Assembly (NCBI RefSeq): GCF_037198285.1
Contig: NZ_CP147243.1
Span: 2,286,422 to 2,350,421, forward strand
Direction of reading: 5' to 3'
DNA: 64,000 nt
DNA from: Haladaptatus sp. DJG-WS-42
GTDB lineage: Archaea; Halobacteriota; Halobacteria; Halobacteriales; Halococcaceae
Of this stretch, positions 37,775-57,959 are shown piece by piece; position 1 is the first letter of the stretch, and each line of letters opens with the position of its first letter. Under the pieces are notes generated by a model. It was given only the letters and a program-made list of their open reading frames with translations, ran no database searches and was not told where the DNA came from. The position numbers and the translations under genes are program-made.

Positions 37775-38125
37775 GTGCCCGACCCAGACCCATCGACTGC
37801 CACCGTGAAACGTGCGCTCAGACGACTCGCGTTTGCTGTCTCAGCCACTGAACCCGACTGCCGTGCGGCGACGGACTGCGCCGATGCAACTCACATCGTT
37901 ACCCGCGGTATCGCGGCGATAGACGACATCGAACTGGCGGCGGATTTTCTCACAGACGTTGGCTTCGACCGGTTCGAGCAGGCGCTTACAGCGTGCGAGC
38001 GCGAAGAACCGGACTCGCTCGTTCAATCGGGACGCGAGGCGGCAGAGGCGTACCGGGCATTTCGGCGTGCGGCCAATCACTTCCGCTCTGGTCGCGGAAC
38101 CCCTTTACGTCGAGACGCGAAATAG
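37775..38125 (+). CDS. Hypothetical helical protein upstream of mre11
   Basis: A 116-residue protein beginning at GTG 37775 (MPDPDPSTATVKRALRRLAF), mostly helical, with three Cys residues (two in PDCRAATDC) and an Arg-rich C-terminus. It ends seven bases before the mre11 start on the same strand, which implies one transcript with mre11-rad50. I do not recognise the family; its location suggests a link to double-strand-break processing, but nothing in the sequence shows this. Confidence 0.62.
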   Translation: MPDPDPSTATVKRALRRLAFAVSATEPDCRAATDCADATHIVTRGIAAIDDIELAADFLTDVGFDRFEQALTACEREEPDSLVQSGREAAEAYRAFRRAANHFRSGRGTPLRRDAK

Positions 38126-38132
38126 CTTCGAC

Positions 38133-39572
38133 ATGACTCGGGTGATTCACACGGGGGACACCCACATCGGCTATCAGCAGTACCACGCTGCAGAGCGCCG
38201 AGAGGATTTCCTCGCTGCCTTTCGACAGGTCGTAGACGACGCGGTGGCGGCGGACGTTGACGCCGTTATCCACGCTGGCGACCTCTTTCACGACCGAAGA
38301 CCAGACCTCCAAGACCTGCTCGGGACGCTCTCTGTCCTGCGAACGCTCGCCGACGCCGACATCCCATTTCTCGCCGTCGTTGGCAACCACGAGGGGAAAC
38401 GCAACGGCCAGTGGCTCGACCTCTATGAGAATCTCGGTCTCGCCACGCGCCTCGGGAGCGACCCGTACATCCTCGGAAACACCGCCTTCTACGGCCTCGA
38501 CTTCGTGCCACCGTCCCGGCGCGACCAGCTAGAATACGAGTTCGACGCACACGACGCCGACCACGCCGCGCTCGTCACCCACGGCCTGTTCACACCGTTC
38601 GACTTCGGCGATTGGGACACCGAAGTCCTCCTCGAAACCGCCTCTATTGACTTCGACGCGATGTTGCTCGGAGACAACCACAAGCCCGGTAAAACGCAGA
38701 TCGGTGAGACGTGGGTCACCTACTGTGGCTCCACCGAGCGCGCGAGCGCGACCGAGCGCGACGACCGTGGCTACAACATCGTCACCTTCGAAAACGGCGT
38801 GGACATCACCCGTCGGGGACTGCCGACCCGACAGTTCCACTTCATCGACATCGAACTCGGTGAGGGCGAAGGAATCGACCAGGTGCGCGACCGCATCCGC
38901 GAGTACGACCTCGAAGACGCCGTTGCGCTCATCACCATCACCGGCGACGGCGAATCGCTCTCCCAAGCCACGGTCGAGGAGTTCGCAACCGACCACGGCG
39001 CGCTCGTCGCCCGTGTCACCGACAAACGCGAGTACGACGCTCCAGAAACCGTCTCGAACGTTTCGTTTGCAGACCCGGACGAAGCTGTCCGCGAGCGTGT
39101 CCGCGAACTCGGCCTGAGCGGCGCTGCTATTGAACTCGACGAGGTGGTTCGCGCGAGCAAACTCGCCAACGCAAACGTGCGAGACGAGGTCGAAACCCGC
39201 GTCCGCGAACTGCTTGAGGACGACGACTTCACGGCGTTCTCGCCCGCGCCTCGTGAGGAATCAAACGGAGCGAGCGACCAATCAGCCGAGCCAGCCGACG
39301 CGACCGAAGCCGAAACCGACGCAGCAGCACTCGACACAGCGACAACAGAATCAGCTGACGACGAGAACGAAGACGCAGACGGCACCGCAGAGACGGCCGA
39401 CACAGCGGCCGACTCGACGGCTGATTCCGGCGGAGACGAAGACGGTTCGTCTGAAGCCGACGCAGACAAAGAGCCGGACACAGCGCCCACAGACGAACCA
39501 CCTGACGATACACCTGCAACAAGTGAGTCGTCCGGCGCTGCGTCCCAGCGCTCCATGGAGGAGTACCTATGA
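38133..39572 (+). CDS. mre11: DNA double-strand break repair nuclease Mre11
   Basis: A 479-residue Mn-dependent nuclease of the Mre11-Rad50 complex. The phosphoesterase motifs are in order: HTGDTHIGY, HAGDLFHDR, VGNHEGKRNG, LVTHGLF and LGDNHKPGK (about residues 5-190). A cap domain follows. The C-terminal 115 residues are an Ala/Asp/Glu/Thr-rich disordered tail ending in ASQRSMEEYL, which resembles a short Rad50- or partner-binding peptide. The long frame from 37959 is not the start; ATG 38133 (MTRVIHTGD) is. The stop overlaps the rad50 start as ATGA. Confidence 0.95.
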   Translation: MTRVIHTGDTHIGYQQYHAAERREDFLAAFRQVVDDAVAADVDAVIHAGDLFHDRRPDLQDLLGTLSVLRTLADADIPFLAVVGNHEGKRNGQWLDLYENLGLATRLGSDPYILGNTAFYGLDFVPPSRRDQLEYEFDAHDADHAALVTHGLFTPFDFGDWDTEVLLETASIDFDAMLLGDNHKPGKTQIGETWVTYCGSTERASATERDDRGYNIVTFENGVDITRRGLPTRQFHFIDIELGEGEGIDQVRDRIREYDLEDAVALITITGDGESLSQATVEEFATDHGALVARVTDKREYDAPETVSNVSFADPDEAVRERVRELGLSGAAIELDEVVRASKLANANVRDEVETRVRELLEDDDFTAFSPAPREESNGASDQSAEPADATEAETDAAALDTATTESADDENEDADGTAETADTAADSTADSGGDEDGSSEADADKEPDTAPTDEPPDDTPATSESSGAASQRSMEEYL

Positions 39573-42238
39573 AGTTCGAGCAGATTCGCTTAGAGAATTT
39601 CAAGTGCTACGACGACGCCGACCTCGGCCTCGAACACGGCGTGACGGTCATCCACGGCGTCAACGGGAGCGGGAAATCCTCGCTGCTCGAAGCCTGTTTC
39701 TTCGCGCTGTACGGGCCCGGTGGGTTCGACCGCAGCTTAGACGAGTTCATCACCATCGGCGCGGAGGAAGCCGCGGTGGAACTCTGGTTCGCACACGCGG
39801 GCGTCGAGTACCGAATCGAGCGTCGCATCAAACTGCGCGGCGAGCGCGCCCAGACCACCGCCTGCGTCCTCGACACGCCCGACGGCACGATAGACGGCGT
39901 GAACGACGTGGAGAGCCACATCCGCAAACTGCTCCGGATGGACGCGGATGCGTTCGTAAACTGCGCCTACGTCCGCCAAGGCGAGGTGAACAAACTCATC
40001 AACGCCTCCGCGCGCGAGCGCCAGTCGATGATAGACGACCTCCTCCAACTCGGTAAGTTAGAGGAGTACCGCGAACGCGCGAGCGACGCCCGCCTCGGCG
40101 TTAAAAGCGTCCTCGACGACCGCCACGGCAGTCTCACGCAACTCGACGACCAGATTGCAGAAAAAGAGGCGAAGAACTTCCACGCCCAACTCAACGATGC
40201 CGAGACGAAACTTGCTGAGTTAGACACCGAAATCGAGCGCATCGAAGGCAACGTCGAGAAGGCGACGAAGACGCGAGACGATGCCGAAGCCATCCTCAAA
40301 GCGCACGAACAAAAGCGCGAAGAACTCGCCGAACTCGCTGAAGAAATCGAAAACGTCCGCGAGAGCATTCGGTCGGACGAGAGCGAACGCGACGCGCTGA
40401 AAGAACGCATTCGCAATCTCAAGGAGGCGACCGAGGAACTCAGAGACGACCTCGACGAACAGGTCGCAGCGAGTGAGCTTTCGGCGGGAACTGAGGAGGC
40501 GGTCGAAGCCGCTCTCGATGCCGTCGAGCAAGAGGACGACGACCTCCACGAACAGTTCAGCGAACAACGCGTTGAGGTACAAACGCATACCGGGAATGCA
40601 GAGGCACACGAAGAACGTGCGGCAGAACTCGAAGCTGAGGCGGAACAAAAGCGCACCAAGGCAGAGGAAACGGCGGCGGCAATCGAGACCGACGAACAGA
40701 CGCTCACAGAGCGCCGAGAGAAGGTCTCCACGCTCAAAGCCCAGCTTGCAACCGAACGGGCGCGGTTCGATGACGCTCCAATCGACTTTGGAGACGCCGC
40801 CGACTTCCGCGACCAACTGACCGACGAACGGACCGAACTCACGGAAAAAGAAACAGACCTCAGAGCAAAAATCACCACCCTCCGGTCGAACATCGAAGAC
40901 GCTGAAGCACTCTTAGCAGAGGGGAAGTGTCCAGAGTGTGGCCAGCCTGTCGAAGACTCGCCACACGTCGATTCGCTCACGGAGGACAAGAAGACGCTCG
41001 AAGCGCGCGAATCCGAACTCGAAGCACTCGAAGCAGAGAAAGACGCGCTCGAAGAACGCATCGAAACTGTAGCGGCGCTCCGCGAAGCAGAGCGCACCGT
41101 CGCGGACGTGAAGAGTCAGAAATCGAGCCTCGAACAACTCGTCACGGAACGCGAAGAGACGCTCGAAGAGCGGCGAGAAACCGTTGAGCAACTGCGTGAG
41201 CAGGCAGACGAACTGGAGATTCGTGCGACCGAAAAACGCGAGGCAGCAAAAGAGGCGGAGGCGAAGGCGACCGAAGCCCGCAAACAGGTTGCAGACCTCA
41301 ACCAACAGCGAACGGCACTCCGCGAGCGAAAGGCTCGGTTAGAAGAGATGCAAACGCTGTTATCGGACATCGCGGATAACGAGACGAAAATAACCCAACA
41401 ACGCGAACGCCGCGAACACCTGAGTGAGATAAACGAAGAGCGCAGAGAGCGCCTTGCTGACATCACGGCACGAAAGCGCGAGTTAGAAGACGAGTTTGAC
41501 GAGCAGACCATCGAGAACGCGCGAAACGAGACGAAACGTGCGCGCACCTACCTCGAAAAGGCAGAGCCGAAACTCGCAGAACTCGCAGCCGAACGCGACC
41601 AACTCACCGGGACGGTTGGCGCGCTCGAAAACGCCATCGAAGAACTCGAAAACCTCCGCGAGCGCCGCGATCGCGTTGCGGATGCTGTCTCGCATCTGGA
41701 GTCGCTGTACGATGAGGCAGAAGACCTCCAGAACATGTACGGCGACCTGCGTGGCGAACTCCGGCAGCGTAACGTCGAAACGCTCGAACGCATGCTGAAC
41801 GAGGTGTTTGACCTCGTCTATCAGAACGACTCGTATTCGCGCATCGAACTCGACGGCGACTACGAACTCACGGTGTATCAGAAAGACGGCGAGCCACTCG
41901 CCCCAGAGCAGTTGTCGGGTGGCGAACGCGCCATCTTCAACCTCAGCCTGCGTTGTGCTATCTATCGGCTGCTCTCTGAGGGTATTGACGGGGCTGCGCC
42001 GATGCCGCCGCTCATCCTCGATGAGCCAACTGTGTTCTTAGACGACGGGCACGTCACCCAACTCATCGAACTCATCGACTCGATGCGCACGCTCGGCGTC
42101 GAACAAATCGTCGTGGTGTCTCACGACGAGGAACTGGTCGGTGCCGCAGACGACCTCGTGGTGGTCGAAAAAGACTCCACGAGCAACCGGTCGCACGCGG
42201 AGCGTGAAACCCGCGAACTACCCGCGGAGTTGCTGTAG
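39569..42238 (+). CDS. rad50: DNA double-strand break repair ATPase Rad50
   Basis: An 889-residue SMC-like ATPase. The N-terminal Walker A is HGVNGSGKSSLLEA (about residues 30-43). Two long coiled-coil arms meet at the zinc hook CPECGQP (first Cys about residue 454). The C-terminal lobe has the signature LSGGERAIFNLSLR and Walker B LILDEPTVFLDDGH. It tethers and processes DNA ends with Mre11. Its last 21 bases overlap the end of the convergent winged-helix gene. Confidence 0.96.
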   Translation: MKFEQIRLENFKCYDDADLGLEHGVTVIHGVNGSGKSSLLEACFFALYGPGGFDRSLDEFITIGAEEAAVELWFAHAGVEYRIERRIKLRGERAQTTACVLDTPDGTIDGVNDVESHIRKLLRMDADAFVNCAYVRQGEVNKLINASARERQSMIDDLLQLGKLEEYRERASDARLGVKSVLDDRHGSLTQLDDQIAEKEAKNFHAQLNDAETKLAELDTEIERIEGNVEKATKTRDDAEAILKAHEQKREELAELAEEIENVRESIRSDESERDALKERIRNLKEATEELRDDLDEQVAASELSAGTEEAVEAALDAVEQEDDDLHEQFSEQRVEVQTHTGNAEAHEERAAELEAEAEQKRTKAEETAAAIETDEQTLTERREKVSTLKAQLATERARFDDAPIDFGDAADFRDQLTDERTELTEKETDLRAKITTLRSNIEDAEALLAEGKCPECGQPVEDSPHVDSLTEDKKTLEARESELEALEAEKDALEERIETVAALREAERTVADVKSQKSSLEQLVTEREETLEERRETVEQLREQADELEIRATEKREAAKEAEAKATEARKQVADLNQQRTALRERKARLEEMQTLLSDIADNETKITQQRERREHLSEINEERRERLADITARKRELEDEFDEQTIENARNETKRARTYLEKAEPKLAELAAERDQLTGTVGALENAIEELENLRERRDRVADAVSHLESLYDEAEDLQNMYGDLRGELRQRNVETLERMLNEVFDLVYQNDSYSRIELDGDYELTVYQKDGEPLAPEQLSGGERAIFNLSLRCAIYRLLSEGIDGAAPMPPLILDEPTVFLDDGHVTQLIELIDSMRTLGVEQIVVVSHDEELVGAADDLVVVEKDSTSNRSHAERETRELPAELL

Positions 42239-42640
42239 CGCCTCGGTTGTGCGGGCGGTTGTTTTGTAGCCACGCTCGCCAAACACGTCCGTTTCTTCGA
42301 CGAGGCCTGCCGCGCGAAACTCGCTCATCGTCCCATAGAGCGTGCTCTCACACTTGTCGTCTGTTTCCATGAGTTCGCGCGCGGCGATCGGACCTGAGTC
42401 TTCGAGGTGAATGAGGAGGCCAAGCGCCCAGTCGTTGCGGGTCGCAGAGAGGAGTTTTCGCACGGGCTCCGGGACGGTGCGTGCGAGCGTCTCAAATGTG
42501 GATTCGCCAGAGACGTGCGAAAGACGGTCGTTTTCGACGTAGAACTCCTCGCCGGTTTCGGGGTCACGGACACGGCTCGCGTCGCTCGATTCAGCGATGA
42601 GCAAGAGGCGTCGTCCCGTGTCGTCGGTGACCGTCTGCAT
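42218..42640 (-). CDS. Winged-helix DNA-binding protein, convergent with rad50
   Basis: A 140-residue protein with a beta-rich N-terminus (residues 1-55, RLLLIAESSDASRV then GEEFYVENDR) and a C-terminal winged helix. The latter includes NDWALGLLIHLEDSGPIAAR, a helix-turn-helix around SGPIAARELMETDDKCESTLYGTMSEF, and a short wing GLVEETDVFGERGYK. It is a probable transcription regulator. The reading frame overlaps the last 21 nt of rad50 on the opposite strand, so the two 3' ends form complementary transcripts. Confidence 0.75.
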   Translation of the reverse strand: MQTVTDDTGRRLLLIAESSDASRVRDPETGEEFYVENDRLSHVSGESTFETLARTVPEPVRKLLSATRNDWALGLLIHLEDSGPIAARELMETDDKCESTLYGTMSEFRAAGLVEETDVFGERGYKTTARTTEALQQLRG

Positions 42641-42665
42641 ATCGTGAAAAACGCAGCCTAGAGGG

Positions 42666-42980
42666 TTATCCGTTCTGGAAATTGCGGTACTTCACGAGAC
42701 CGTAGACGAGCGAAACCGCGCCAAGACCAAAGACGATGCCGCCGGTCTGGAACTGTCCGCGGAAGTACATCAACATCGCCCCGAGACTGAGGGCGAACAG
42801 CGCGACGTTGAACGTGAGCACGAGCGACCAGAAGGTGCGAAACACGTCGTCGGGGATGTCCGAGACATCCGAGTTTGGCGTACTGACCGAGGGGATTTTC
42901 GGGCCGATGTCTGTCTCGGGGTTAAACTCCGTTGGCTCATCCGGCCAGGCGTCGGATTGCTCTTCCTCTAGGTCAAACAC
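42666..42980 (-). CDS. Small two-helix membrane protein
   Basis: A 104-residue protein starting at GTG 42980 (reading FDLEEEQSDAWPDEP after the initiator). The first half is acidic and soluble. Two transmembrane segments follow: TFWSLVLTFNVALFALSLGAML and GGIVFGLGAVSLVYGLVKY. The GTG is chosen because upstream codons of the open frame encode a basic, non-haloarchaeal composition. It is between the winged-helix gene and the DUF7331-like gene, all minus strand. Function unknown. Confidence 0.62.
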   Translation of the reverse strand: MFDLEEEQSDAWPDEPTEFNPETDIGPKIPSVSTPNSDVSDIPDDVFRTFWSLVLTFNVALFALSLGAMLMYFRGQFQTGGIVFGLGAVSLVYGLVKYRNFQNG

Positions 42981-43051
42981 AGGTTCACTACGCGTTCCGC
43001 AAAAAAGTATTCTCCGACGTGTGTTCTCGCCCCGGTACCCCAAATTCCCTC

Positions 43052-43237
43052 TTATGCCACGTCGCGGAGTAAAACTGCGTGCGTGGCCTGTACCCACGCA
43101 AGTGGATTCTCAGCGTCATAGAGTACAATCCCATCCTCTGTCGTATAGACCTCTGTGGTCTCGACTCCGTCTGGGACGGTTGGCTCTGGTCTGTCAGCGC
43201 TATCTGGCTGCCGACGCGGACTTGCGTGGTTTGACAT
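43052..43237 (-). CDS. Small haloarchaeal protein, probably DUF7331
   Basis: A 61-residue protein with a hydrophilic N-terminus and a conserved-looking C-terminal half (VETTEVYTTEDGIVLYDAEN then PLAWVQATHAV). I recall this pattern as the haloarchaeal DUF7331 family, often near polB. The start MSNHASPRR is the first in frame. It is divergent from DNA polymerase B with 117 nt between starts. Confidence 0.68.
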   Translation of the reverse strand: MSNHASPRRQPDSADRPEPTVPDGVETTEVYTTEDGIVLYDAENPLAWVQATHAVLLRDVA

Positions 43238-43354
43238 TAGGCCATTTCACCTCGAAGCATGGTATGTGTTATCATATTATATGTTTTGTGGATGGAGCAA
43301 GTGCGGGCGACAGACCGCTGGTGTTTTTATCAGCCGAACGACTTTGATGAGACA

Positions 43355-46048
43355 ATGACGCAGACGGGGCTCAACCAGTTTGCCGCCGCCGAGCAGGACG
43401 AAGACCGGCTCGCCGCAGAGGCACGAGCAGTCGCAGGCGACGACGGGAGGAACGCAGCCGTCGTCGATTCGGCGGCGAAGAAGTACCCCGATGCGACGGG
43501 AACCGTCGCCCTCACCGTCTCACAGGTGGATTACACCCTCGTCGGCAGTGGCGACCAAGAATCGCCTGTCCTCCACGTGTTCGGGCGCACCGCAGAAAAC
43601 GAGTTAGAACACGTCATCGTCTCCGGGTTCCAGCCCTACTTCTACGCACCGACTGCCTCGCTCTCCGACGAGAAACTTGACCTCGACACCATCACTGGGT
43701 GGGAGGAAGGCTACGAGAGCATCCGCGGCGAGAAACTGACGAAGATTTTCGGCCGCACGCCGCGTGACGTGGGCCAGATGCGCGACCGCTTCGACCACTT
43801 CGAGGCGGACATTTTGTTCCCGAATCGGTTACTCATCGACAAGGACATCACGAGCGGGATTCGCGTGCCAGACCGCCGCGGCGACGATGGAGCCATCCAC
43901 ATTCCCCATACCGAAATCGAAGCGGTCGAGGTGGATGCAGACCTTCGCATCAACACCTTCGACATCGAAGTCGAAGACCGAAACGGCTTCCCGGAAGACG
44001 GCGAGGAGCCGATTATCTGCCTCACCAGCCACGACTCGTTCGACGACGAGTACATCATGTGGCTCTACGAGGCGCCCGGCGCCGAGACCGGCCCCGACGA
44101 ACTTCCCGACTATGTCCCAATCGAGGGCGACATCACCTTCGAAATTCGCCGATTTGAGGCCGAAGACGAGATGCTCGCGGCGTTTCTCGACTATCTCGTC
44201 GAAACCGACCCGGACGTCCTGACCGGGTGGAACTTCGCGGATTTCGACGCACCGTACCTCTTAGACCGTCTCGAAGAACTCGAACGTGGTTCTGACTACG
44301 ACCTGAACTACAACCGCCTCTCGCGCGTAGACGAAGTCTGGCGCTCTGACTGGCAAGGGCCAAACATCAAAGGGCGCGTCGTGTTCGACCTGCTGTACGG
44401 CTACAAACGCACGCAGTTCACTGAACTCGACTCCTACCGGCTGGATGCAGTCGGCGAAGTCGAATTGGGAATTGGGAAGGAGCGCTATGCGGGCAGTATC
44501 GGTGACCTTTGGGAGCAGAACCCGTCAAAGCTCTTAGAGTACAACCTTCGCGACGTGGAACTCTGTGTCGAACTCGACCGCAAGCAGGGCATCATCCCCT
44601 TCTGGCGGGAGGTGGCATCGTTCGTCGGGTGTAAACTCGAAGACGCCCCGACGCCGGGCGACGCGGTTGACCTGTACGTCCTCCACAAGGTACACGGGAG
44701 CTTCGCGCTCCCTTCGAAGGGACGCGCAGAGAGCGAGGACTACGAGGGTGGTGCGGTGTTCGACCCAATTTCGGGCGTCCGCGAGAACGTGACGGTGCTC
44801 GACTTGAAGTCGCTGTACCCGATGTGCATGGTTACCATCAACGCCTCACCCGACTCGAAAGTCGGCCCCGATTACGACGGCGAGACGTTCGTCGCGCCGA
44901 ACGGCACGCACTTCAGAAAACAGCCGGACGGCATCATCCGGGAGATGGTTGACGAACTGCTCACCGAACGCGAACAGAAGAAGGAACTTCGCAATCAGAA
45001 CGACCCCGACTCTACGGAATACGACCGCTTCGACCGCCAGCAGGCGGCGGTGAAAGTCATCATGAACTCGCTGTACGGGGTGCTCGGCTGGGAGCGATTC
45101 CGCCTCTACGACAAGGAGATGGGCGCCGCCGTGACGGCGACGGGCCGTGAGGTCATCAACTTCACCGAACAGTCTGCGAACGACATGGGGTACGACGTTA
45201 TCTACGGCGACACGGACTCCATCATGCTCTCGCTTGGACCGGACGTGGACAAAGAAACGGCCATCAAGCAGTCGTTCGAGATTGAGAGCCACATCAACGA
45301 GGCGTACGACGCCTTCGCGCGCGAGAAACTGAACGCAGCGGACCACCGCTTCCAAATCGAGTTCGAGAAGCTCTATCGCCGATTTTTCCAAGCGGGCAAG
45401 AAAAAGCGGTACGCGGGCCACATCATCTGGAAGGAAGGCAAAGACGTAGACGACATTGACATCACCGGATTTGAGTACAAACGCTCTGACATCGCGCCGA
45501 TTACGAAGGAGGTCCAGCTTCGCGTTATCGAGATGATCGTCCACGGTGAAGATTTAGAGAAGGTCAAAACCTACGTCCACGACATCATCGCGGATTTCAA
45601 AGAGGGGAACGTTGATTTCGACGACGTGGCGATTCCGGGCGGCATCGGAAAGCAGTTGGACAACTACGACACCGACACCGCGCAGGTGCGCGGGGCGAAG
45701 TACGCGAACCTCTTGTTGGGTACGAACTTCCAGCGCGGCAGTAAGCCAAAGCGCCTCTACCTCGCAAAGGTTCACCCGTCGTTCTTCCGCCATGTTGAAG
45801 ATGAACGAGGACTCGACCCCGCAGGAATGAGCGCGGACGAACTGCTGTACGGCGAGTTCAAACGCGACCCGGACGTCATCTGCTTTGAGTACGCAGACCA
45901 GGTGCCACCGGAGTTCCAAGTCGATTGGGACAAAATGTTAGAAAAGACGCTTCAGGGGCCGATCGAGCGTATCTTAGAAGCGCTCGACGTTTCGTGGGAA
46001 GAGGTCAAATCCGGACAGGAGCAAACCGGACTTGGCAGCTTCATGTAG
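43355..46048 (+). CDS. polB: Family B DNA polymerase
   Basis: An 897-residue replicative DNA polymerase with 3'-5' proofreading. Exonuclease motifs are NTFDIEVED (Exo I), GWNFADFDAPYLL (Exo II) and EYNLRDVELC (Exo III). Polymerase motifs are DLKSLYPMCM (motif A), KVIMNSLYGVLGW (motif B) and YGDTDSI (motif C). ATG 43355 (MTQTGLNQF) is chosen; the upstream frame from 43259 contains the promoter (TATA-like tttttat at 43324-43330). The protein is uninterrupted, with no intein at motifs A to C, although many haloarchaeal PolB genes have them. Confidence 0.96.
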   Translation: MTQTGLNQFAAAEQDEDRLAAEARAVAGDDGRNAAVVDSAAKKYPDATGTVALTVSQVDYTLVGSGDQESPVLHVFGRTAENELEHVIVSGFQPYFYAPTASLSDEKLDLDTITGWEEGYESIRGEKLTKIFGRTPRDVGQMRDRFDHFEADILFPNRLLIDKDITSGIRVPDRRGDDGAIHIPHTEIEAVEVDADLRINTFDIEVEDRNGFPEDGEEPIICLTSHDSFDDEYIMWLYEAPGAETGPDELPDYVPIEGDITFEIRRFEAEDEMLAAFLDYLVETDPDVLTGWNFADFDAPYLLDRLEELERGSDYDLNYNRLSRVDEVWRSDWQGPNIKGRVVFDLLYGYKRTQFTELDSYRLDAVGEVELGIGKERYAGSIGDLWEQNPSKLLEYNLRDVELCVELDRKQGIIPFWREVASFVGCKLEDAPTPGDAVDLYVLHKVHGSFALPSKGRAESEDYEGGAVFDPISGVRENVTVLDLKSLYPMCMVTINASPDSKVGPDYDGETFVAPNGTHFRKQPDGIIREMVDELLTEREQKKELRNQNDPDSTEYDRFDRQQAAVKVIMNSLYGVLGWERFRLYDKEMGAAVTATGREVINFTEQSANDMGYDVIYGDTDSIMLSLGPDVDKETAIKQSFEIESHINEAYDAFAREKLNAADHRFQIEFEKLYRRFFQAGKKKRYAGHIIWKEGKDVDDIDITGFEYKRSDIAPITKEVQLRVIEMIVHGEDLEKVKTYVHDIIADFKEGNVDFDDVAIPGGIGKQLDNYDTDTAQVRGAKYANLLLGTNFQRGSKPKRLYLAKVHPSFFRHVEDERGLDPAGMSADELLYGEFKRDPDVICFEYADQVPPEFQVDWDKMLEKTLQGPIERILEALDVSWEEVKSGQEQTGLGSFM

Positions 46049-53229: not shown

Positions 53230-53980
53230 GTTTCACCCACCAACTATCAACAAGGTTACTGTTGGAACATAATAAGTTATATGGATTTATCAAATGAGAT
53301 TAGTCGGAATTCAAAACATTTTATCACCCTTCATCAGCTCCCCTCGCTGAACACGCATTCGCCACTCGATTGAGCACAACATGGGGAACCCACTTGCAAG
53401 AACCCATCGTTAATAATTAATCGGTCATAGCCTGGGCGCGCGCAACGACTTGCCGACAAATTATATTGGCAATAATTACCGGGTGTAGTTGCAATGTTGA
53501 CATTATCTTGCAGCAGTTACATCGTGACACATATTGTGGGAGTACATTCAACCTCGTGATATGAAAACTCCATAATTCGGGAGTTAAGCACTCTCTAAAC
53601 GTGATGGGACGACGAATCACTACAATTGTTGATACGTATTAGAAATCGTGATGAATCTATATAATTGCGTGAATTGCGTCTTTTGAAATCTAGGGTTTAA
53701 GGGCCTGAAAGCCCAGAAAAACACAAATGCAACGGTTTGAAACGGCCCGTTAAGCACATCTTATTATCTTCCAGTATTCGGGCATAACTCAGTCCATGTC
53801 AGGATATTACTGAAAGCATAACAATTTTATATCCTTGATAGAATGTTAATATTAGAAAGTAATTCAGACGGGAATTACTATCACGAAAATAAGAATAAAC
53901 GGCTTGGCGATAGCTACGGGTATAGTCCCAACTCACTCATACGGCATTCGACGTGCCCGAGAATCGCTACGAAAACCACA
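53230..53980. other. AT-rich gap without a convincing gene
   Basis: About 750 nt with clearly lower GC than the rest. The left end holds the response-regulator promoter (AT-rich 53268-53282). The right end has a TATA-like tttatat near 53827-53833 that may serve the beta-helix gene. Frames inside are short and basic. Low GC and few genes fit recently acquired or decayed DNA. Confidence 0.5.
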
Positions 53981-55552
53981 ATGGAAAAACGCGACACGAT
54001 CTCTCAGACGGCAGAACAGAACGACACTCCTTCCCTTATCGGGCGACGTAAATTCATGGGTGCGGTCGGGGCAACGGCAGCGGGCGCAACAGTACTCTCC
54101 TCGCAGAACGCATCAGCGACGACCACGACCGGCGTAGAAGACGGGTACAGCCGGGTCATTGACATCGTCGCAGACGCCGGGGCAGACAACACAGGTAACG
54201 AATCCATCACGCCGATCCTCCGCGAGTACGCTGGCGATGATACGCTCATCAAATTCCCACCAGGGCGCTACTACATGGACTCACAGTTCCGCTTTACGGG
54301 CTTCCGAAACTTCGGGCTGGTCGGCGACGACGCCACGCTCGTCCCGGCGAACTACGACGACTTCGACGGACCACAGTACCGCCTGTTCCGGCTTGGTATC
54401 TACTACAATCCCGGCGTTGACCTGCGCGTCCAAGGGTTTACGGTTGACCTCACCGCAGAACGCACCGGCATCCGCGCAATCGATGCGATGGTCGATGACG
54501 GGCTGTTCGTTGACGACATCACCATCGTTGGCCGCCACGACACCGGCACGTTCGGGCCTGCGCTGTTCTCTATCACGTCGCCTGAGGGCAAAGGGATGGT
54601 CAAGCGCTTCCGCGCCAACGACGGCGGCGCGTGGGACGAGGACACGCCGGGTGACCTCTGGCGTGGCCCCACGGGCATCCTTTGTAGCCAGTACCACACC
54701 GGACAAATCGAGTTTAAAAACTGCGAACTCGACGACTGGCCGGACAACGGCCTCTATGCGGTGACGAACGGCCGCGTCATCGTCAACGGCGGGCGCTACG
54801 CCAACAGCGAGGCTGCGAGCATCCGACTTGGCGGCCACGACTGTCTCGTCACGGGCGCGGAAGTCGTCGTCGACAAGCAGAACCCACAGAACCAGAACCA
54901 GCGTGGTATTCGCCTCGATGAAGGCCCCAACATGGCGGTCGTCGATACGACCATCCGACTGGAGAAGCCAAACGGCCACGCGCTCACGGTGATGAACGAC
55001 TGTGAGAGCGCCTACCTCCGCGGTCTCGACATCTCCATCGGCGACGAAGTCTGCCACGGCATTGTGGTGCAATCGCAAGCCGGCCCAACCGAAATTGTCG
55101 ATACGAACATCGACATCCAGCGCGGCGGCAACGCGATCCAAATCAACGGCACTGACGCGGGCAAGGTCCACTGTGAGTACGTGGACATCACGGGCACCGC
55201 AGACGGTGACTCGTGGCGCCACGCGATTCGGTGCAACCGAAACGACTGTGAGTTCCGCGTGGTGAACGTCAACCAACCGGGCGACCACTTCCGGCGCGCC
55301 CTCGTGCTCAACGGTGAGAACACGCTCGTCTACCGTGGCAAGCAAGCGGCAACCCACGTCCCAATCGTGGTCAACAGCAAGGGTGCCTGGCTCGAACGCA
55401 TCGAAGCGCGGTCGTTCAGCGGGCGAGAAGGCCTCAAACTGAACAGCATGAGCTCTGACGTGACCATCAAACGCAGTACCATCGTAAACGGTATTTGGGA
55501 CAAGAGCACTGAGGGGCTGCGGATGTACGGCAACGAATTCGAATTGAATTAA
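53981..55552 (+). CDS. Tat-exported right-handed beta-helix protein
   Basis: A 523-residue secreted protein. Start ATG 53981 (MEKRDTISQ) precedes a twin-Arg signal GRRKFMGAVGATAAGATVL (about residues 26-44), with cleavage probably after the ASA near residue 53. The mature part begins with IDIVADAGADNT, a pectate-lyase-type N-terminal cap. Repeated parallel beta-helix rungs follow, with phrases like VIVNGGRYANSEAASIRLGG, MAVVDTTIRLEK and AYLRGLDISIGD. It resembles polysaccharide lyases or hydrolases but catalytic residues are not identifiable. Location near polysaccharide-modifying genes fits surface-glycan work. Confidence 0.82.
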   Translation: MEKRDTISQTAEQNDTPSLIGRRKFMGAVGATAAGATVLSSQNASATTTTGVEDGYSRVIDIVADAGADNTGNESITPILREYAGDDTLIKFPPGRYYMDSQFRFTGFRNFGLVGDDATLVPANYDDFDGPQYRLFRLGIYYNPGVDLRVQGFTVDLTAERTGIRAIDAMVDDGLFVDDITIVGRHDTGTFGPALFSITSPEGKGMVKRFRANDGGAWDEDTPGDLWRGPTGILCSQYHTGQIEFKNCELDDWPDNGLYAVTNGRVIVNGGRYANSEAASIRLGGHDCLVTGAEVVVDKQNPQNQNQRGIRLDEGPNMAVVDTTIRLEKPNGHALTVMNDCESAYLRGLDISIGDEVCHGIVVQSQAGPTEIVDTNIDIQRGGNAIQINGTDAGKVHCEYVDITGTADGDSWRHAIRCNRNDCEFRVVNVNQPGDHFRRALVLNGENTLVYRGKQAATHVPIVVNSKGAWLERIEARSFSGREGLKLNSMSSDVTIKRSTIVNGIWDKSTEGLRMYGNEFELN

Positions 55553-55606
55553 TTAACTCTTCTGGCCATTTTTGTCGCGGGTTGCGTTTGTGCTTGGCCC
55601 AAGCAC

Positions 55607-55689
55607 CTTTCTGCGTCTGGGGGTGTGAGCCTGTATGATCGAAAATGACCTCGGTCAGGCGACCATCGTGTATGACAGCCCCGACGGCA
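55607..55689 (+). repeat. Direct repeat, left copy (83 nt)
   Basis: Aligns without gaps to 57578-57660 (offset 1971). The last 51 nt (55639-55689 against 57610-57660) are identical, and the first 32 differ at a few positions. It copies the promoter-proximal region and first 18 codons of the small gene at 57606. Together the two copies bracket the deacetylase and formyltransferase genes. Confidence 0.9.
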
Positions 55690-55700
55690 AATTTGAGTAA
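55635..55700 (+). pseudogene. Truncated 5' copy of the small gene at 57606
   Basis: Reads MIENDLGQATIVYDSPDG and then stops after three further codons (KFE, stop). The intact gene at 57606-57959 begins MVENDLGQATIVYDSPDGTI and continues for 117 residues. This is therefore a relic left by a duplication or insertion event at this site, not an independent gene. Confidence 0.85.
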
Positions 55701-55720
55701 CAGGCTTATAACACCCTGTT
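55699..55720 (+). promoter_or_regulatory. TATA box flanked by operator-like inverted repeat
   Basis: AACAGG (55699-55704) and CCTGTT (55715-55720) are perfect 6-bp arms with a TATA-like ttataa (55706-55711) in the 10-nt spacer. The start codon of the deacetylase gene is at 55783, giving a leader of about 50 nt. A regulator bound across this site would occlude TBP. Confidence 0.55.
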
Positions 55721-55782
55721 AGGCCACCCCTTCCTCGGTTCGTCTCATATTTACAAAGTCGTCAGCATCCAATTGGGGACCA

Positions 55783-56754
55783 ATGAATGGCGTGGTCACG
55801 ATTAGTATCGAAGTGGAACTAGGCTGGGGATTCCACGATATTGGCGGTCCAAAGCGGCTGAGCGACCAGTGTGTAGAGGAGCGAAAGTATCTCAAAAAAC
55901 TCCTCCACAAATGCGACGAGGTTGGCATTCCGATCTCGTTCGATGTCGTTGGTCACCTTGCTCTCAATGAATGTGATGGGACACACGAGGGCCACTACCC
56001 AGCAGACTGGTTTGCGAACGATCCCGGTACGAACTTTGAAACGAATCCGGACTTTTACGCGCCGGATATGATCGCAGCCATTGCGGCATCGAACGTCGGT
56101 CACGAGCTCTGTACGCACACCTTCTCGCATGTCCTTTGCGACCGCATGGGGGACGACTGTGTCAACGACGACATCGCTCACGCACAACAGATTCACGAGA
56201 CTCACTTCGGAAAGAAATCGGTATCGTTCGTTCCCCCTCGGCACTTCGAACCGACGGCGACCGTGCTACGAGAAAACGGAATTGAAATCGTTCGGAAATC
56301 GATTCATACTGATACGGGTAACAAAGTGAACCGCTTTTTCGAGCTGCTGATCGCTCCCCCGCTGCTCAACGAGCCACAGCTTGTCGAGGGGGTCGTCGAA
56401 ACGTACTGCACGAGCTACCAATCGCTCACTGCAAGCTCGCTCCCAATCGGTCAGCGAGAAACTCATGCGGTGTTCAAGCCCATTCCACGCAGCCTCAGAC
56501 AGCAGCTTCACCTCCGCCGGATGGAAACCGACCTCAAAGCCGTTGTCGAGAATGATGGGTACGCCCACTTCTGGTGTCACCTCTGGGATCTCTCGAACGA
56601 ACACCAGTGGGGCGTCGTCGAACCGTTCCTCGACATGCTTGCGACCTATCGTGATACGGAGGGACTGCAGGTGCTGACCATGGCGGAGCTGAACGACCAC
56701 GTCAGGGCCCAACACGCAACCGGCGTCGAACTCATGGAGGGCATCAATGGCTGA
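55783..56754 (+). CDS. Polysaccharide deacetylase family protein (NodB-like, ArnD-like candidate)
   Basis: A 323-residue carbohydrate-esterase-type TIM-barrel protein. The first catalytic motif is SIEVELGWG, where the family usually has a DD or DVD, so acidic residues are kept but altered. The zinc-binding motif is GHELCTHTFSH (HxxxH, about residue 107). Later segments VPPRHFEPTATVLRENGIEIV and AHFWCHLWDL (His, Trp) complete the active-site barrel. It removes acyl groups from aminosugars or, like ArnD, formyl groups from a lipid-linked sugar. It overlaps the formyltransferase gene by eight bases; no signal peptide is seen. Confidence 0.83.
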   Translation: MNGVVTISIEVELGWGFHDIGGPKRLSDQCVEERKYLKKLLHKCDEVGIPISFDVVGHLALNECDGTHEGHYPADWFANDPGTNFETNPDFYAPDMIAAIAASNVGHELCTHTFSHVLCDRMGDDCVNDDIAHAQQIHETHFGKKSVSFVPPRHFEPTATVLRENGIEIVRKSIHTDTGNKVNRFFELLIAPPLLNEPQLVEGVVETYCTSYQSLTASSLPIGQRETHAVFKPIPRSLRQQLHLRRMETDLKAVVENDGYAHFWCHLWDLSNEHQWGVVEPFLDMLATYRDTEGLQVLTMAELNDHVRAQHATGVELMEGING

Positions 56755-57547
56755 ACCGCTTCGTCTCTGTCTGCTCGCAGAGTCGTCGATGAGCCGGTGG
56801 CAACTCGAAGCGATCCGGAAATTGCTCGACGAACAGGATGTCACCATCAGTCTCATTGTGGTTCACCACCCACGCGCTCGCACGCGAAAAGAGAAATTCG
56901 ACCGCGCGATTCAGCTTCGTGAGTGGACCCTCGTCGCTGGCGGATTAGGGCTCATGCGCAAGCTACGAGGGTCCCACCAATTGACCGAGTCAATCCCCCT
57001 CGATGAAATCCCTGAACTCGACGGAGTCGAGCAAATCGCGTGCACGCCCGAGGTCATCAATGGCTGGAAGTATCAAATCCAACCTGAAATCGCCGAAGAA
57101 GTTGCGACGAAAGCTGACATCGCGCTTCTGTGTGGGTTCGGATTCATCACCGGGCCGATTCTAGCTGCTCCAAAACACGGCGTCTTGAGCTTCCATCACG
57201 GCGATCTACGAAAATACCGGGGGCAACCCATGGGTTTCTGGGAATATCTCCGTGGAGAACAGACCGCGGGCGTAACGCTCCAACGACTTACCGAGAAACT
57301 CGATGGTGGAGAAATCATCTATCTGAACGAAGTTGATATCAGCGACGCGCGGTACCTTCGTGAGGTGAAAACACGCCTCCTTGCGGAGTCGGTAGAAATG
57401 CTCTCTGAGGGTGTGAGACGGGTTCGTGACGAGTCGTTCTCACCGGAGACACCAACCGAACTCGGGCAGATCTACCGCATCCCAAAAGGGAAACCAGTCG
57501 CAAAATACCTCGCTAAATCTATCTTGGCAGCTGCTCGACTGTCCTGA
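56747..57547 (+). CDS. Formyltransferase family protein (ArnA/Fmt-like)
   Basis: A 266-residue protein with an N10-formyltetrahydrofolate-dependent formyltransferase core. The key region is SFHHGDLRKYRGQPMGFW (about residues 149-166), matching the HxxLPxYRG pattern of the active site. GVTLQRLTEKLDGGEIIYLNEVDI follows, typical of sugar and tRNA formyltransferases. The family Asn of the N-x-H-xSLLP motif is replaced (SFHHGDL), so the catalytic Asn may be missing; His152 or its neighbour could fill its role. It likely formylates an amino sugar, which the adjacent deacetylase could deformylate. Confidence 0.8.
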   Translation: MAEPLRLCLLAESSMSRWQLEAIRKLLDEQDVTISLIVVHHPRARTRKEKFDRAIQLREWTLVAGGLGLMRKLRGSHQLTESIPLDEIPELDGVEQIACTPEVINGWKYQIQPEIAEEVATKADIALLCGFGFITGPILAAPKHGVLSFHHGDLRKYRGQPMGFWEYLRGEQTAGVTLQRLTEKLDGGEIIYLNEVDISDARYLREVKTRLLAESVEMLSEGVRRVRDESFSPETPTELGQIYRIPKGKPVAKYLAKSILAAARLS

Positions 57548-57577
57548 TTGTTACGGTCGATACAGCGGCCAACACAT

Positions 57578-57660
57578 CTTTCTGCGTCTGGGGCTGCGTG
57601 CCTGTATGGTCGAAAATGACCTCGGTCAGGCGACCATCGTGTATGACAGCCCCGACGGCA
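57578..57660 (+). repeat. Direct repeat, right copy (83 nt)
   Basis: The right-hand copy of the repeat at 55607-55689. It includes the start codon at 57606 and the first 18 codons of the intact small gene. The first 32 nt differ by a few bases from the left copy; the last 51 nt are identical, which points to a fairly recent duplication. Confidence 0.9.
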
Positions 57661-57959
57661 CTATCGAGCAGACGGTCGATAACGAGCACGTCGCGTACTT
57701 CCAAGACCACTGGATCGTCAAAACCGGCGAAGACGACCACGGAAACGACACCATCCGACGCATTCCGTACCAGCGTGTCCACTACGTCGAACGGAATGTA
57801 GAACAGTTCGAAAACGAAGTTGAGACGCTGAAAGACCGTGTCCAGTCGTTTACCGATGATATCAGAACGCGAATCCTTGGCGACGAACCGCCAGAGAGCC
57901 AAGAACACAGTCAAGACTCAATTCGCGTAGACATAGAGGACAAAGACTCTTCGAACTAA
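57606..57959 (+). CDS. Acidic coiled-coil small protein of unknown function
   Basis: A 117-residue protein starting MVENDLGQATIVYDSPDGTI. The first half is beta-rich (HVAYFQDHWIVKTGEDDHGN), and the second half contains a coiled coil (VEQFENEVETLKDRVQSF) and an acidic tail. ATG 57606 is supported by the duplicated copy beginning at exactly this codon. The open frame upstream to 57426 overlaps the formyltransferase and is ignored. It sits 58 nt after the formyltransferase stop, and a duplicate of its 5' end lies before the deacetylase. Function unknown. Confidence 0.72.
   Translation: MVENDLGQATIVYDSPDGTIEQTVDNEHVAYFQDHWIVKTGEDDHGNDTIRRIPYQRVHYVERNVEQFENEVETLKDRVQSFTDDIRTRILGDEPPESQEHSQDSIRVDIEDKDSSN

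Follow-up and report, generated by a model that had tools for sequence, protein, structure and literature searches.

A haloarchaeal gene pair joining a NodB fold to an S-x-H formyltransferase fold, with a possible role in N-formyl sugar synthesis

Introduction

Bacterial O-antigens are known to contain N-formyl sugars. In the examples we know of, the amine that carries the formyl group comes from an aminotransferase, and to our knowledge the substrates of the sugar N-formyltransferases characterized to date are nucleotide-linked amino sugars that aminotransferases have generated, rather than HexNAc that has been deacetylated. A formyltransferase fold and a NodB fold occur in one pathway in the ArnA/ArnD route to aminoarabinose, and in heparan sulfate synthesis NDST couples a NodB-like deacetylase to an enzyme that re-modifies the exposed amine. 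N-formylation of a haloarchaeal surface-glycan sugar has been described in Halorubrum sp. PV6, where N-formyl-legionaminic acid caps the S-layer N-glycan; for its 5-N-formyl-legionaminic acid pathway the authors name only a putative formyltransferase (HrrPV6_1050) and no deacetylase (PMC6137143). A formyltransferase encoded on a haloarchaeal plasmid was earlier proposed to be a sugar N-formyltransferase (PMC11431627).

Here we analyze a gene pair in a 64,000-nucleotide stretch of Haladaptatus sp. DJG-WS-42 DNA (the window) that resembles each of these systems in part. Compared with ArnA/ArnD, the window pair has no decarboxylase domain, no N-x-H triad and no match to the ArnD model, and its inferred order of steps is the opposite. 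NDST is a single polypeptide of the eukaryotic Golgi that adds sulfate, whereas the window pair consists of two overlapping genes in an archaeon, one of them encoding a formyltransferase fold. The sugar N-formyltransferases WbkC, Rv3404c, QdtF and FdtF share the PF00551 domain and the triad His and Asp with the window protein; in contrast to them, it has Ser in place of Asn, within S-F-H-H-G-D-x-R-x-Y-R-G, and no adjoining aminotransferase gene. Unlike the deacetylation proposed here, the Halorubrum pathway obtains its amine from the legionaminic acid route. A search of the open-access literature by term matching found no paper describing such a NodB/formyltransferase pair.

Results

A NodB-fold gene overlaps a formyltransferase-fold gene

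A preliminary description of this DNA had reported an 8-bp overlap between a NodB-type deacetylase gene and a formyltransferase (FT) gene, and the open reading frames and the sequence bear this out: the FT start codon lies at 56747, ahead of the NodB stop codon at 56752-56754 on the same strand. The same overlap length recurs in several homologous loci and at one locus (L086) where a GNAT gene replaces FT. An Rfam search of the flanks of the pair found no RNA element.

Table 1. Features of the NodB/FT locus, in window coordinates
Feature	Position	Strand	Description
NodB/CE4-fold protein gene	55783..56754	+	323 aa, E-type; proposed N-deacetylase
Formyltransferase-fold protein gene	56747..57547	+	266 aa, S-x-H type; proposed 10-formyl-THF-dependent sugar N-formyltransferase
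NodB stop/FT start overlap	56747..56754	+	8 bp, ATGGCTGA
GGAGG, Shine-Dalgarno-like	56736..56740	+	6 nt upstream of FT start codon; shared with sister species G124
TATA-like element	55746..55757	+	CATATTTACAAA; ~30 nt upstream of NodB start; conserved in G124
Left direct-repeat copy	55596..55712	+	Truncated copy of the 57606 gene's upstream region and first ~20 codons
Right direct-repeat copy	57567..57683	+	Region upstream of the intact 57606-57959 gene, with the 5' end of that gene
Inserted segment	55691..57566	+	1876 bp, 54.8% G+C; NodB and FT genes only; absent from G292

The pair was inserted into an occupied locus

A 117-bp direct repeat with 84% identical copies brackets the pair, homology of the left copy being strong to about position 55690. 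The insertion duplicated about 90 bp of the upstream region and start of the neighboring gene (57606-57959), which encodes a 117-aa protein with no family above its curated cut-off. In a genome of the same genus (G292), the 57606 gene comes immediately after a beta-helix gene, and the pair is absent, with no FT, while G124 carries the insertion with the same repeats; the 1.88-kb insert was thus gained in the common ancestor of the window genome (G000) and G124. The closest FT relatives lie in another family (G056, 53%) and the FTs of same-family genomes reach only 30-35%, with taxonomy assigned by kinship only, a pattern that fits lateral transfer of the pair. The TATA-like element is consistent with a leaderless promoter brought in by the insert. 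We set aside the idea that duplication captured the promoter of the 57606 gene, since the insert itself holds this element just ahead of the NodB start. A viral origin is likewise unsupported, with no relative in viral contigs and only distant partial matches in phages. The flanking repeat (about 90-117 bp) is longer than usual insertion-sequence target duplications, and the repeat analysis reported no inverted repeats around the insert.

The preliminary description also placed the pair beside a Tat-exported beta-helix protein. The gene (53843-55552) does encode a twin-arginine-like motif, although the protein falls below the curated cut-offs of TIGR01409 and PF13229. Because G292 has the beta-helix gene without the pair, this gene predates the pair at the locus and is not part of the module, and a fixed association of the two was rejected. 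At a Natronococcus locus (L075), the beta-helix gene adjoining FT is not clearly related to that of the window. In the window, the pair is not part of a glycan cluster and has no further glycan gene next to it. Further upstream (37959-46045), a calcineurin-like phosphoesterase is encoded with an SMC/Rad50-like ATPase and a family B DNA polymerase; no glycan genes were seen in this interval, apparently an ordinary housekeeping context of DNA repair and replication.

The NodB-fold protein has an altered but conserved first motif

The NodB protein matches PF01522 (Polysacc_deac_1) above the curated cut-off in Pfam (E=9e-7, 29.3 bits versus 23.1). Its AlphaFold model, built with an alignment (pLDDT 88.1), has the CE4 (beta/alpha) barrel fold. 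In Foldseek the best match is 3rxz (E 1e-11), followed by HpPgdA (3qbu); the NodB-like deacetylase domain of NDST is among the structural matches, and the ArnD structure 8t0j ranks only 12th (E 5e-8). The protein thus belongs with CE4 by profile and fold and differs from it in motif 1, which reads ISIEVELGWG in place of the CE4 TFDD and so lacks the two Asp of (T/S)FDD. The preliminary description had noted this alteration, which proves to be a family-wide replacement of the CE4 Asp by Glu: the pattern T-x-S-x-E-x-E-L-G-W-G is conserved within the clade, while distant paralogues have Asp at the first motif 1 position. Motif 2 (H112-T-F-S-H116) fits the metal-ligand pattern H(S/T)xxH with both His invariant, and P152-R153 and H262/H266 show little or no variation among relatives. 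The catalytic motif starts at most 12 residues from the start of the protein, so the enzyme should be cytosolic, lacking a signal peptide.

The formyltransferase-fold protein belongs to an S-x-H family

The FT protein likewise exceeds the curated cut-off of its Pfam family, PF00551 (Formyl_trans_N; E=4e-13, 49.9 bits versus 26.1). Its AlphaFold model, built with an alignment (pLDDT 94.7), matches formyltransferases in Foldseek (best E 2e-13), including FDH hydrolase, Fmt and ArnA domains at a TM of about 0.63, and is no nearer to sugar FTs than to FDH hydrolase domains. With no room for a signal peptide, FT should also be cytosolic. It does not belong to Fmt, scoring 51.3 bits against a curated 201.5 with a match that ends at position 197 of the 315-position profile, and it lacks the full length and C-terminal domain of that enzyme.

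Where N-x-H-x-S-L-L-P is expected, FT reads SFHHGD. A profile search aligns S148, H150 and D186 with N102, H104 and D140 of ArnA, the known catalytic triad of Asn, His and Asp; the Asn is essential in ArnA and Fmt. The altered active-site motif had been pointed out before, and it is conserved across the family. A search through 84,980 species genomes gave 80 loci of the family; in the 82 stretches aligned from them, Ser occupies the Asn position 80 times, while the His and the Asp are each present in 82 of 82; the two Asn exceptions are second, canonical formyltransferase open reading frames in L133 and L162. The family has loci in haloarchaea, Bacteroidota, Planctomycetota, Actinomycetota, Alphaproteobacteria and others. 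Since the motif changes of both NodB and FT are family-wide, we rejected active-site decay. Either chemistry could differ from the canonical one, with Ser for the catalytic Asn in FT and Glu for Asp in NodB motif 1.

Bacterial S-x-H members are mostly longer than the window FT, and a C-terminal GINT1_N domain (PF24793) is present in 7 of the 8 that were scanned (L151, L154, L163, L186, L187, L195 and L204). GINT1_N is a propeller-like domain that takes its name from a plant glucosamine-ceramide transferase. A literature search found no paper on an S-x-H formyltransferase/GINT1_N fusion.

The S-x-H protein might instead be a formyl-THF hydrolase or another one-carbon or acyl transferase, with NodB preparing a different amine substrate. 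We consider this unlikely: the replacement of a residue essential in ArnA and Fmt, the moderate structural similarity, no closer to sugar FTs than to hydrolase domains, and the many fusions to a GINT1_N propeller all speak for it, but the triad His and Asp are invariant, standalone S-x-H members lie in glycan clusters, and canonical N-x-H FTs show the same pairing with deacetylases.

NodB and FT are linked and have diverged together in haloarchaea

Single-sequence searches of 292 haloarchaeal genomes at fixed thresholds found an FT match (E<=1e-5) in 104 genomes and 39 loci with close E-type NodB relatives (>200 bits). An S-type FT lies directly downstream on the same strand in 24 of these 39, a count obtained by matching the NodB and FT lists by hand and reading the loci. 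Many haloarchaea thus conserve this linkage. A plasmid locus and L036, where the partner of FT is a D-type NodB, bring the total to 26 pairs, 20 of which overlap, by 4-14 bp. The distance matrices of NodB and FT are correlated (r=0.78, with none of 2000 permutations of the full set as high), and leaving out L036 raises the correlation to r=0.89. Plasmid homologues (with plasmid annotation used as distributed) sit inside glycan clusters, and on several chromosomes the pair lies among housekeeping neighbors with no adjacent glycan gene. These comparisons show the pair to be a real module and support a functional coupling of NodB and FT. The pairing is not obligatory, because each gene also occurs alone; many homologues are linked, so the concern that they might be found singly and unlinked applies to some loci and not to many others.

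The partner of NodB can be exchanged

Of the 15 NodB loci without FT, 6 have a GNAT protein adjoining NodB (L084, L085, L086, L087, L090 and L097), that of L085 belonging to PF13527. In L086, NodB and GNAT overlap by 8 bp, ATGCCTGA, with the GNAT start falling within the NodB stop, a geometry identical to that of the window. An IQ-TREE phylogeny places the window clade (with G124 and G056) as sister to L086 and L083 (support 96/86), and the FT label, assigned like the other partner labels from gene adjacency, changes 9 times on the tree, with at least 5 changes forced by strong branches. These genomes carry more than one GNAT family member, the window genome having two, so a simple presence count says little; the greatest similarity (45-54%) is among the NodB-adjacent copies of G142, G242, G178, G033 and G140. 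An exchangeable partner that acylates amines is in keeping with a NodB protein that yields a free amine.

NodB also persists without a partner of the FT type. Two loci (L088 and L089) keep NodB after clean loss of an FT that is present in syntenic relatives. E-type NodB is present in 11 genomes with no FT relative at E<=1e-5, although these may have canonical formyltransferases beyond the reach of that search. The job of NodB thus seems independent of FT.

Deacetylase/formyltransferase pairs arose repeatedly

The weak FT matches seen elsewhere turned out to be N-x-H enzymes of the canonical kind, some of which are paired as well. In L210, L220, L221 and L222, a canonical N-x-H FT overlaps a NodB-fold gene by 4 bp, with glycosyltransferase genes adjoining each pair. 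The L210 deacetylase scores 320.8 against the XrtA-system polysaccharide deacetylase model (cut-off 276.2), and the other three loci share the architecture of this XrtA-type pair. It resembles the window pair in its overlapping deacetylase and formyltransferase genes, but has the reverse gene order, a canonical N-x-H FT and a canonical CE4 enzyme, and as a pair is not homologous to that of the window. A Haloarcula plasmid (L074) carries, within a rhamnose/glycosyltransferase cluster, a further NodB paired with an N-x-H FT, and in Omnitrophota (L183) and Chloroflexi (L189) unfused S-type FTs follow deacetylases with PgaB and IcaB as best models. L036, with its different NodB, also counts as an independent pairing. 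Unrelated deacetylase/formyltransferase pairs have thus arisen separately elsewhere in Archaea and Bacteria, and we read this repeated independent pairing as selection for having both activities together.

Deacetylation followed by formylation best explains the pair

Our favored reading, which we hold with slightly better than even confidence, is that the pair is a horizontally acquired cassette that replaces N-acetyl with N-formyl on an amino sugar of a surface glycan or glycoprotein. The cytosolic NodB-fold enzyme would strip an N-acyl group (probably N-acetyl) from the sugar to expose the amine, which the overlapping S-x-H FT would then formylate with 10-formyl-tetrahydrofolate, a plausible donor because FolD is present in the genome. 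Overlapping translation would keep the two proteins in step, and the formyl group would be the product, not a transient mask, on a sugar destined for the cell surface. Broadly, the scheme would parallel that of NDST, formyl taking the role of sulfate.

The preliminary description had proposed the reverse, an archaeal aminosugar formylation/deformylation route like that of ArnA and ArnD. Its core, a coupled hydrolase and FT that probably act on glycan amino sugars, stands; the ArnA/ArnD analogy does not. In an Arn-like order, FT would formylate a nucleotide-linked amino sugar, the formyl group would mask the amine during lipid transfer, and NodB would then remove it. Both folds match those of the Arn enzymes, and ArnD (8t0j) and ArnA N-domains are among the structural matches, but FT scores 41.2 bits against a cut-off of 777 for ArnA and its 266 residues do not include the fused UDP-glucuronic acid decarboxylase domain of ArnA, and NodB has no match to the ArnD model at E<=1. 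A deformylase role is also unlikely for NodB because it persists in genomes with no detectable FT relative, and hence no obvious substrate, and at the two syntenic loci that lost FT. The use of a GNAT acyltransferase as partner and of an above-cut-off polysaccharide deacetylase in an independent pair further argue against this order, which we regard as distinctly unlikely. Deacetylation followed by formylation accounts for coupling, the FT-less NodB genes, the GNAT exchange and the genuine polysaccharide deacetylase of a convergent pair, whereas the Arn order accounts for coupling alone. Least probable is that NodB and FT act on different positions or molecules of one glycan pathway and are linked merely as a glycan-modification island, since, although members of each family are found alone as well as in clusters among many other modifying enzymes, the exact overlaps, co-divergence, same-junction partner swap and repeated pairing exceed what clustering would give, and the window pair and several other chromosomal pairs with housekeeping flanks have no adjacent glycan gene.

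If correct, deacetylation followed by formylation would be a second route to N-formyl sugars. The FT/GNAT swap at the same junction suggests that exchanging one gene could alter surface sugar chemistry, a change relevant to S-layer recognition and virus binding, and the S-x-H family calls into question the presumed indispensability of Asn in the N-x-H triad. More tentatively, and with somewhat less than even confidence, we propose that the window shows one form of a widespread "acyl-swap" module, in which an N-deacetylase is joined to a swappable N-acyltransferase (an S-x-H FT or a GNAT) to yield N-formyl or other N-acyl sugars, and that S-x-H FTs are a new catalytic class found in Archaea and many bacterial phyla, often fused to GINT1_N.

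An S-type FT without NodB also occurs at a conserved chromosomal locus (L051, L052, L054, L057 and L059), where its neighbors encode a GCD14-like tRNA methyltransferase, a TGT_C2/PUA protein and an NYN-domain protein; the role of FT may differ there.
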